Source: Rhabdobacter roseus
GTDB lineage: Bacteria; Bacteroidota; Bacteroidia; Cytophagales; Spirosomataceae
Direction: 5' to 3'
DNA: 64,000 nucleotides
Assembly: GCF_014202275.1 (NCBI RefSeq)
Contig: NZ_JACHGF010000005.1
Coordinates: 124,001-188,000 of the forward strand
Below are positions 6,505-8,664 of the stretch, one piece after another. How positions within the stretch are numbered: the stretch's first letter is position 1; each line of letters starts with the position of its first letter. Both the position numbers and the translations under genes were made by a program. The notes below the pieces were generated by a model that worked only from the letters and a program-made list of their open reading frames with translations, searched no databases and was not told the DNA's origin.

Positions 6505-7226
6505 TATTCAGACGAATACCTATCTGAGCAATAAAATAATACTTTACATTTCATGGAAAATGCAACCGAAATGGCACCGATGTATTACTTAGCTCAAGCT
6601 AGGTATAGAGTAGAAGGCGTAGTACATCCACCAATCATTCATACTAAGAGAAATGATAAAATTGATTTGGAAAACTACAATACGTAAAAAGTGCAATCTT
6701 CTATTAGACCCCTTAAAAAGGAATCAAAGATTTTATTGATACTGACCGGAAAGTTGAATTTGATTCAATGCCGAAAGATACTAGCACAGCTATCATTAAA
6801 TCAAATTTTATGCTCTATTTTTTTAAAATATAAAACCAAGCCAGTTACAAAACGGACACAAACGGAGCAAAGTATACTTTGCTTTTTGAATTAATAAAAA
6901 GCATGGGATAACCACCTTGAAAGCTGAAGTCCCTACCTACGAATGGCCGAAAAATACCAGGATTGAAAAAAAATAAAGTACCCCACGCTTGGGATTAGTG
7001 AATACGTTTATAAAGTACCTTGTAGAATTTCCCTGCTATAAAATTCAGAAGCGTTTACAACTAACTTACGGGTCAATAACGCGCCTTCGGGGCCGCGTAG
7101 CGGTCGAATGTTTGTAGGTCGCTGCGATGGAGAAAAGTGCCCCGCGTGCCTTTCATACCTTTGCTCATTACGTTATCTGATTAGCTTTTACCGAATTATC
7201 TTTGGCAACTATTTAGCTAAGTGGTA
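6505..7226. other. AT-rich intergenic stretch before the IS110 element
   Basis: Over 700 bases contain no convincing gene. A 44-codon open frame at 6553-6687 (starting MENATEMAPMYYLAQ) and a longer one at 6691-6894 lack family features. The AT-rich part ends near 7080. The GC-richer segment 7078-7172 reads on the minus strand as a 31-codon frame starting MSKGMKGTRGTFLHR and may be a dispersed repeat. The left boundary of the IS110 element lies somewhere in 7050-7226. Confidence 0.4.
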
Positions 7227-7378
7227 GGGGATGGATAAAAACAGCAGTGCCGTAGGTGCCTGACACCGTTGCCTATGTGTGTTCCCATCCCCCTGCTTTA
7301 ACCGCATCGGCGGCCCGGCAACACCGGACAGTTTGTTAGGCCTCGAGCCTGTGTGCATGATGAAGGTGCGGTTAAAGC
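7227..7378 (+). ncRNA. Candidate bridge RNA of the IS110 element
   Basis: The region directly upstream of the transposase start folds into two consecutive long stem-loops: stem 7227-7234/7285-7292 (GGGGATGG with CCATCCCC, loop about 50 nt), then a 12-bp perfect stem 7295-7306/7367-7378 (GCTTTAACCGCA with its complement, loop 60 nt). IS110-group elements are known to encode a bridge RNA of roughly 150-200 nt in the non-coding end preceding the recombinase; its two internal loops pair with target and donor DNA. Position, size and two-loop layout match, so I infer that this is that RNA. The guide segments were not resolved. Confidence 0.6.
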
Positions 7379-7403
7379 TCACTTAGCCCTAAACTCTACA
7401 ACA

Positions 7404-8420
7404 ATGATAACAAATTACATCGGAATCGATATTGCCGCCCGCTCCTTTGTTTCAGCTCGGCCCACGCCTACTGCCAGCTATCAGATCCAACGGTGGGACT
7501 ATCAGACGCCCCAGCAGATTGCTCGATTCATCGAAAGTCTGAATCCTCAGACCGATCAGTGTGTATTGGAAGCCACCGGTAACTACCACCTGCGGTTGAC
7601 CTATGCGCTGCTCGAAGCAGGCATTTCGGTTTCGGTCGTCAATCCACTGTCGGTCAAGCGCTATGGTCAGATGCTAGCGTCCATCACCAAAACGGATCAG
7701 CGCGATGCGGTTTTGTTGGCTCGGTACGGTCAGCAACAACGTCCGGCACCCTACCGACAACCCGATCAACATTTGCAGTACTTGCGCCAACGGCGGATGG
7801 TACTCAGCCAGTTGCAACAACAACGGCAGGCCTTGGCTAACCAGCAACATGCCCTGTGTGTCCATCCCCAACCTGATGCTTTTAGTCAGCAAATCCTCGA
7901 CCAACAGCTAGTTTATATCGAGCAGGCAATTGCCGATTTACAAGCTCAGATTAACCAACTAGTTGCCGATCACTACCAGCAGTCTCGCCAGCTACTAGCC
8001 TCCATACCGGGCTTCGGAACCGTTAGCACGGCCGTTTTTCTGGAGGCCTTAGCGGGTTTTGAGGGTTGGCAACAGCCTGGCGCAAGTAAAGCCTTTGTGA
8101 AATATATAGGTCTGGCTCCCACGCTCCACCAATCGGGTCGTTCGGTCCGAGGTGGAAGCCACATCAATCGTTCGGCGGTGCCCTGGTTGCGGCAGAAGTT
8201 GTGGTTACCGGCCTGTACATTAGCCATGAGGCTCAAAACCGACACAGTCTTTCAACGCTTGTACATACGCTTACGACAGGGGGGGGAATCCTTCAAAGAA
8301 GCCATCATTGCCGTTATGCACAAATGGGTTCGGGTAGCCTTAGCCGTTTTACAATCGGGAAAACCATTCGATCCTGGATTAAACTTGACAACCGAAGAAA
8401 ATTTGGCCAATGCCTTGTGA
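7404..8420 (+). CDS. IS110-family transposase (DEDD recombinase)
   Basis: This 338-residue recombinase, started at the ATG giving MITNYIGIDIAARSF, has the N-terminal RuvC-like DEDD domain (GIDIAARSF; VLEATGNYH; TKTDQRDAVLLARYG), a central coiled stretch rich in Gln (LSQLQQQRQALANQQ), and the C-terminal transposase_20 domain (LASIPGFGTVSTAVFL, KYIGLAPTLHQSGRS, GGSHINRSAVPWLRQ). Length and domain order are normal and the frame is intact, so the element may be active. IS110 recombinases join donor and target DNA guided by a bridge RNA. A long non-coding region lies upstream rather than downstream of the gene, which fits the IS110 group rather than IS1111. Confidence 0.95.
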   Translation: MITNYIGIDIAARSFVSARPTPTASYQIQRWDYQTPQQIARFIESLNPQTDQCVLEATGNYHLRLTYALLEAGISVSVVNPLSVKRYGQMLASITKTDQRDAVLLARYGQQQRPAPYRQPDQHLQYLRQRRMVLSQLQQQRQALANQQHALCVHPQPDAFSQQILDQQLVYIEQAIADLQAQINQLVADHYQQSRQLLASIPGFGTVSTAVFLEALAGFEGWQQPGASKAFVKYIGLAPTLHQSGRSVRGGSHINRSAVPWLRQKLWLPACTLAMRLKTDTVFQRLYIRLRQGGESFKEAIIAVMHKWVRVALAVLQSGKPFDPGLNLTTEENLANAL

Positions 8421-8427
8421 AATTTGA

Positions 8428-8529
8428 CAGTTCATAGGTACGTAACCAGCGTTGGGGTTGCGTACCTAAAGGCACGCTGACGGATTTGGGTGGCCCTTTT
8501 AGCTATAAACATCGTGTGCCTATGAACTG
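8428..8529. repeat. Nested inverted repeats after the transposase
   Basis: Outer arms 8428-8438 and 8519-8529 are an 11-bp perfect inverted repeat (CAGTTCATAGG with its complement). Inside the left part a second hairpin has arms 8437-8447 and 8456-8466 (GGTACGTAACC against GGTTGCGTACC, one G-U type mismatch). This may be the right end of the element, or a host palindrome that served as target, since IS110 elements can insert into structured repeats. Confidence 0.5.
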
Positions 8530-8664
8530 ATTCGGCTCATCATTAGGGATGCGTGAATGAGCTCTAAACGCTCTCCCGCCGCGCATGATTGTACAGAGCA
8601 CTTTAAGAAAATAGTTACTGACTTACTCCCTCATCAATAAGCGAGGGGTACTTTTACTCTCTGA

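Follow-up and report, generated by a model that had tools for sequence, protein, structure and literature searches.

Two long stem-loops lie directly upstream of an IS110 recombinase gene in Rhabdobacter roseus, and the question that this locus raises is whether they form a bridge RNA, i.e., an RNA with one loop for the genomic target and another for the ends of the element itself. Such an RNA is to be expected here, since bridge RNAs are predicted in 85.7% of IS110s (PMC11208160). A preliminary description of the window (the whole 64,000-nucleotide stretch of DNA that was analysed) had proposed this reading, in which loop one would serve the target and loop two the donor, and had named covariation among homologues and complementarity of the loops to both flanks of each insertion as checks. 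We conclude with high confidence that the two-loop structure is the bridge RNA of an IS110-group insertion sequence. The case is built from sequence, namely the structure, its covariation, the matches of the loops, the ends of the element, empty sites and a promoter-like junction. The system may, as that description put it, be functional and programmable.

The element and its two-loop RNA

The left junction in the window reads GTGCCTTT followed by CATACC and the right junction reads GACAGTTCAT followed by AGGTACG, and these readings set the limits of the element (Table 1). The host genome (27 contigs) holds one full-length copy. The recombinase had been described as intact, with DEDD and C-terminal motifs, and this is borne out by the open frame and by residues D9, E56, D98, D101 and S244, which align with the catalytic D11, E60, D102, D105 and S241 of IS621 (numbering from PMC11208158). 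S257 was considered as the catalytic serine and rejected, as the IS621 alignment points to S244. The protein, whose 338 aa lie within the range of about 300-460 aa typical of IS110-group recombinases, carries the domains PF01548 (DEDD RuvC-like, 5.2e-20) and PF02371 (Transposase_20, 1.2e-13), scores 169.1 bits against NCBIfam NF033542, 'IS110 family RNA-guided transposase' (cut-off 140), and matches IS621 (4.7e-30) as well as the homologous recombinase of ISCro4 (chain 9t56_A, named ISCro4 transposase; 5.1e-26), the latter in a comparison of proteins. A protein scan of genome contigs gave three loci only, two of them from Larkinella punicea. The host genome also contains a second IS110-type recombinase (G000:C13:64344-64769), beside which the RNA model described below has no match at E ≤ 0.001.

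The stem-loops had been placed at 7227-7378, and the coordinates, letters, stem lengths and loop sizes given for them proved exact. In the target-binding loop (TBL), GGGGATGG (7227-7234) pairs with CCATCCCC (7285-7292) over 8 bp around a 50-nt loop; in the donor-binding loop (DBL), GCTTTAACCGCA (7295-7306) pairs with TGCGGTTAAAGC (7367-7378) over 12 bp around a 60-nt loop. In the predicted fold a basal stem (7216-7224/7379-7387) may close both loops; this stem, the apical hairpins of the two loops and an insert of 16 nt in the 5' arm of the DBL were absent from the preliminary description. The 192-nt region folds at -71.5 kcal/mol, compared with -58.05 ± 4.25 for shuffled sequences (z -3.16; 1 of 200 shuffles as stable). 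The window also has a small hairpin at 7191-7205, which 83 of 200 shuffles form as well, and a family-wide 5' stem-loop before the TBL was not supported, with only 2 of 41 elements standing out from shuffles. At gathering thresholds, no Rfam family matches in the window.

Table 1. Features of the element, its RNA, its ends and its target sequences, in positions of the window
Feature	Position	Strand	Sequence	Remarks
Whole IS110 element	7154-8435	+		Flanks match unoccupied copies of the repeat; ends as in the L. punicea and Spirosoma terrae copies
Left end (LE)	7154-7403			250 nt
IS110 recombinase (tnp)	7404-8420	+		338 aa; ATG 7404, stop 8418-8420, open frame
Right end (RE)	8421-8435			15 nt, including donor core AT (8434-8435)
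Left target flank and target core	7146-7153	+	GTGCCT + TT	Core TT at 7152-7153; part of interrupted palindrome arm
Right target flank	8436-8446	+	AGGTACGTAAC	Rest of interrupted arm
Right donor (RD)	7154-7163	+	CATACCTTTG	
Candidate -7 box	7156-7163	+	TACCTTTG	Fits Bacteroides -7 box TAnnTTTG
Candidate -33 element	8414-8417	+	CTTG	20 nt before TACCTTTG once ends are joined; consensus match only
Basal stem, 5' arm	7216-7224	+	GCTAAGTGG	Predicted to pair with 7379-7387
TBL	7227-7292	+		Stem 7227-7234/7285-7292; apical hairpin 7255-7267
Left target guide (LTG)	7245-7253	+	CAGTGCCGT	Equals top strand of exact sites in host repeat
Right target guide (RTG)	7270-7276	+	TGCCT + AT	Complementary to AGGCA, or to occupied-site AGGTA with one G-U
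DBL	7295-7378	+		Stem 7295-7306/7367-7378; apical hairpin 7338-7350
Insert in DBL 5' arm	approx. 7304-7321	+		16 nt, G+C-rich; without counterpart in L. punicea and S. terrae
Left donor guide (LDG)	7327-7333	+	GACAGTT	Identical to right-end sequence 8426-8432 (7/7)
Right donor guide (RDG)	7357-7361	+	ATGAT	Complementary to ATCAT, i.e., joined core and LE start
Basal stem, 3' arm	7379-7387	+	TCACTTAGC	
Element donor sequence			GACAGTTCATCATACC	
Occupied-type target			GTGCCTTTAGGTA	
S. terrae-type target			GAAGCTGTTTAAAC	Inferred

Conservation of the structure among homologues

Homologues were sought in overlapping sets of genomes from relatives (149), the family (222), the phylum (395) and the order (390), and the loci of the protein scan and the L. 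punicea matches were added. The 109 protein-match loci, together with the window, were reduced to 68 that passed the score limit and had an upstream donor-guide motif, and to 41 elements after removal of near-duplicates; poor stem calls (e.g., L130 and L049) were retained. Each stem was compared with swapped pairings, counting the elements in which its own pairing beats at least 95% of swaps. This held for the TBL stem in 37 of the 41, for the DBL stem in 12-13 and for the basal stem in 8, and for each stem none of 10,000 permutations reached the observed sum, counts that are not strict probabilities as the homologues share ancestry. L. punicea carries a single C-A mismatch in the basal stem, of which no more than 5 bp were called in S. 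terrae, and overall the stem is modestly supported.

For covariation, 16 distant homologues were aligned, leaving out the window, L. punicea and S. terrae; these sequences were picked by eye from 26 trimmed RNAs, which in turn came from 40 folded elements. RNAalifold predicted 30 pairs, 23 of them with two-sided changes. Four predicted pairs, which share positions with the donor guide and in no case show a two-sided change, were omitted from the count, leaving 26 pairs in six helices of which 23 show two-sided changes, and all 30 were kept in the covariance model. The 26 pairs are formed in 89.3% of cases compared with 67.4% in shuffles, none of 500 shuffles reached any of five measures, and a slide by one column brought the covariation score down from 0.658 to about 0.25. 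Since this alignment of eye-chosen sequences is also the source of the structure, these figures lean towards that structure. An earlier MAFFT alignment that included the window (18 sequences, 14 pairs predicted) had misaligned the donor stems and was replaced by the window-free one.

The covariance model built without the window found, as its sole match in the 64 kb up to an E-value of 10, positions 7214-7392 (53.9 bits, E 6.3e-11), and with the two-sided changes in 23 of 26 pairs this answers the first of the two checks in favour of the proposed RNA. There was no other match in the host genome at E ≤ 0.001 (150 of 445 candidates scored), and neither of two empty-site loci was matched. The model recovered 23 of 24 further IS loci at E ≤ 1, some of which closely resemble members of the model; L101 was missed and the weakest match was L108 (E 0.2). 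Locus L126 has a second, weaker match downstream.

In four homologues that form a sub-branch (L151, L154, L160 and L122), the left end is close to GTCGTACGTTTG and the donor guide has diverged to GAATAGTTCG or GGATAGTTCG; this sub-branch fits the general end motifs poorly.

Guides, insertion sites and the host repeat

Pairing between the loops and the sites of insertion was analysed across the same 41 elements. For the right target guide the test was anchored on both sides, with the right target (RT) taken from the conserved right end ACAGTTCAT and the guide from the stretch that precedes the final ATG in the TBL; 12 elements were omitted, eight without a usable right end and four without an ATG in the loop. 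In the remaining 29, Watson-Crick pairing at positions 1-5 was 90, 86, 86, 90 and 72% for the element's own target compared with 25-36% when swapped, a result reached in none of 100,000 permutations, and pairing at positions 6-7 was at background. Exceptions were L161, which scored 0, and L155 and L107, with 3 of 6. The unanchored version was weaker than the anchored one, giving 0 of 10,000 permutations with the constant CAT included (clear in 11 of 34 elements) and 2 of 10,000 when this CAT was left out (clear in 5 of 34).

The left target guide agreed with its own left target (LT) at 5.83 compared with 3.89 (0 of 100,000; clear in 13 of 29), and the right donor guide with its own core and RD at 5.00 compared with 3.74 (0 of 100,000; clear in 6 of 29), falling to 3.69 and 3.34 when the core was excluded (247 of 100,000; clear in 1 of 29). 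These anchored tests omitted the 12 of 41 elements without a left-end motif; the motif gave a wrong start for the window and for S. terrae, and both were kept in the count, where they work against the claim. In single elements the signals of the DBL stem, the basal stem, the left target guide and the right donor guide are often weak, which counts against the bridge-RNA reading. An unanchored scan of the left target and right donor guides, omitting five of the 41 elements with wrong-looking stem calls, gave 0 and 29 of 20,000, respectively. Loop segments thus match both flanks across insertion sites, the target and donor loops had been assigned the right way round, and the bridge-RNA reading of the preliminary description is supported by the loop matches to target and donor as well as by covariation.

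Among close relatives, the recombinase of L. punicea is 91% identical in protein, and that of S. terrae, a single element found as both L072 and L100, is 67% identical and sits at a different site. In S. terrae the left guide GAAGCTGTT is identical to the left flank (9/9) and the right guide GTTTA pairs with TAAAC of the right flank (5/5). Judging from these sequences, guide and site have changed together between the window and L. punicea on one side and S. terrae on the other.

Such changes bear on whether the structure instead acts in cis on the transposase mRNA, as a leader or attenuator, or is a target of small antisense RNAs in the way reported for ISPpu9. It lies directly upstream of the gene, where co-transcription is possible, and the expression of ISPpu9 is reportedly regulated by two small RNAs (PMC8450116). 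However, the loops of a leader would not be expected to vary in step with the insertion site, as they do here, and because of this guide-target covariation we regard a leader as a highly improbable explanation; an extra leader role could coexist with that of a bridge RNA.

The site itself belongs to a dispersed, REP-like palindrome, one arm of which is interrupted by the element; the palindrome's second arm is intact and so reveals what the broken one was. The flanks match many dispersed copies (50 matches in all in the host genome). Among 20 fetched repeat stretches, 17 have both halves around the site, two the right half only and one the left half only. Empty arms read GTGCCKYTAGGTACGCAAC, and the interrupted arm in empty copies is GCGTGCC-NN-TAGGTACGCAACC or a near variant; allowing at most two mismatches, this pattern has 37 matches in the host genome compared with one for its reversed control.

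The repeat, seen at 7000-7153 and 8435-8641 of the window and in loci L021-L040, is about 350 bp long and REP/BIME-like. At its centre is a palindrome whose arms are close to GCGTGCCNNTAGGTACGCAACC, and it carries another inverted motif; the host genome contains dozens of such arms, and L. punicea has related ones. Three host genes for Y1_Tnp (HuH) proteins exceed the family cut-off (G000:C1:407073, C17:58725 and C9:105903).

Joined together, the left target guide CAGTGCCGT and AGGCA, the complement of the right one, give the 14-mer CAGTGCCGTAGGCA, which is present in 14 of 178 fetched loci; these overlap and represent six distinct repeat copies, all in the host genome. The 14-mer occupies a second position of the same repeat, where the window guide matches at 14 of 14 positions, and the related GTGCCGTAGGCACG appears seven times in the host-genome listing. 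At least six sites in the host genome that match the guide exactly are unoccupied. The occupied site is the other position of the repeat, with GTGCC followed by three nucleotides before the junction instead of two, and it is not the best match of the window guide, a point against the bridge-RNA reading: the left guide shares GTGCC with it one nucleotide out of register, the right guide pairs through four Watson-Crick pairs and one G-U of five, and the guide core is GT compared with TT in the occupied target and AT in the donor. On the donor side, the right guide is paired at 5 of 5 positions with the next one mismatched.

The same offset recurs in L. punicea, which has many copies (26 matches, mostly broken at contig ends). 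All 26 loci gave junctions, although some left and right contig ends may stem from one insertion: GTRCC stands 2-3 bases before the element at 14 of 14 left junctions (background at that distance 0.96% in the window), and 13 of 13 right junctions start T[AG]GG[TC]ACG. The core at the left junctions is AT in eight and TT in six. Ten of the 14 left junctions share the one-nucleotide offset of the window and four lack it, and for this reason either pairing tolerates a one-nucleotide bulge or the register assigned to the guide is slightly off. The three-base and two-base patterns have 61 and 12 matches in the L. punicea genome and 34 and 20 in the host genome, where the reversed control of the two-base pattern has four; these counts are too small to read a site preference from them.

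The second repeat position in the window itself (8522-8529, - strand) reads CAGTTCATAGGCAC, and other copies read CAGTGCCGTAGGCAC or CAGTGCCATAGGCAC; CAGTTCAT is the right end of the element. An earlier insertion at the site that the guide matches best may have left the sequence at 8522-8529 as a scar; two small mutations would explain it too.

The unoccupied exact sites also raise the possibility, itself compatible with a bridge RNA, that this is a decaying copy in which the 16-nt donor-arm insert has damaged the RNA, the present insertion being the work of an earlier version. The element is present as a single copy, and the spacing from the TBL stem to the donor guide is 35 nt, compared with 8-21 nt in the 40 other non-redundant elements. 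Because of the insert, the 12-bp stem and 60-nt loop of the window are longer than those of its relatives, and the outer stem can compete with the conserved inner one. However, this outer donor stem is paired over 14 bp, more than in any of the 40 others, the recombinase frame is open with its catalytic residues in place, and the perfect matches of the guide to host-genome repeats suggest recent upkeep. We consider decay unlikely, albeit far from negligible.

Chance secondary structure combined with chance matches of the loops to repeats might be proposed as well, given that short matches are frequent by chance and that the single-sequence fold reached a z of only -3.16. Against this stand the model match, the covariation of pairs, the guide swap tests and the 14-mer matches taken together; the covariance-model match and the swap tests refute chance, to which we give next to no credence.

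The joined ends and comparison with known systems

Joining the ends of the element as a circle would bring ACAGTTCAT next to CATACC, and the sequence of this junction resembles a Bacteroidota promoter, with the consensus TAnnTTTG as given for Bacteroides (PMC7366714). With the ends joined, a TTG stands 19-21 nt before a TAnnTTTG-like box at the start of the left end in 23 of 26 elements, and it is at the exact 20-nt position in 27 of 34 right ends; the left-end box was located by its motif, unlike the TTG. A promoter within the left end, pairing TTTG at 7160 with TAGCTTTT at 7182, was considered and dropped in favour of the one at the joined ends. In IS621 the same arrangement of joined ends forms a sigma-70-like promoter (PMC11208160).

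By analogy with IS621, we propose that the excised element would form a circle, where the right and left ends, now joined, would create a promoter from which the left end is transcribed into about 220 nt of RNA, both the transcription and this length being taken from IS621. The recombinase, as in IS621, would bind this RNA. The TBL would then pair with both strands of the genomic target, i.e., the REP-like palindromic repeat, and the DBL with both strands where the ends of the element itself are joined, upon which the recombinase would exchange strands at the dinucleotide core in the manner of IS621.

The likeness to IS621, as described in PMC11208160 and PMC11208158, covers the location of the RNA, inside the left end and ahead of the recombinase gene, the order of TBL and DBL, each with a stem, left guide, apical hairpin and right guide, the pairing of the left guide with the bottom strand and the right guide with the top strand, the insertion of IS110 elements into REP elements and the promoter, here a candidate, from RE-LE joining. 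The two differ in that the core here is AT, TT or GT (donor, target and guide) and CT in IS621, the promoter-like sequence is of the Bacteroides type here and of the sigma-70 type there, the right target guide here has 5 nt plus the core, a basal stem may close both loops here, and no family-wide counterpart of the 5' stem-loop of IS621 was found. The seekRNA of ISEc21 (PMC11187229) likewise derives from noncoding sequence that precedes tnp, and its bottom-strand match comes ahead of its top-strand match; it differs in that a 74-nt form is the more abundant there. ISPpu9, ISPpu10 and ISPa11 of Pseudomonas are described as inserting specifically into repetitive extragenic palindromes (PMC1525189), a likeness, to elements of other hosts, in the description of REP insertion. 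The IS1111 group, with its guide RNA in a long right end, is not matched, as the right end here is 15 nt and the RNA lies in the left end.

More tentatively, the differences from IS621 could mark a Bacteroidota branch of bridge RNAs, characterised by a three-way junction at the basal stem, a circle-junction promoter for a Bacteroidota sigma factor lying over the donor core, and a one-nucleotide register tolerance by which one guide would serve two positions of the same repeat; we rate this combination as possible but rather doubtful. Among the top-ranked results, titles and abstract starts of open-licence PMC papers gave no Bacteroidota bridge RNAs, which is weak evidence of absence, and the word start 'Bacteroid' has 0 occurrences in the main text of PMC11208160.

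The family of RNA-guided recombinases has been known since 2024, and the element described here is a well documented further member. Bridge recombinases are under development as genome-writing tools, the founding work having been done with IS621, an element of E. coli (PMC11208160). This element and its relatives provide a Bacteroidota set with clean ends, to which a single genome contributes over twelve natural insertion sites; the set might be of use in hosts in which promoters of the E. coli type fail. They also offer a case of natural reprogramming between close relatives, i.e., the window and L. punicea compared with S. terrae, and the one-nucleotide offset at most occupied repeat sites poses a concrete question on guide register.

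Palindromes may lie beside several other homologues too. Loci L104, L105, L123, L124 and L136 adjoin sequences starting CATTCCGA, CATTGCGAG or CATTTCGACG, some of them palindromic by eye, and the targeting of palindromes may therefore recur with different guides in other homologues.
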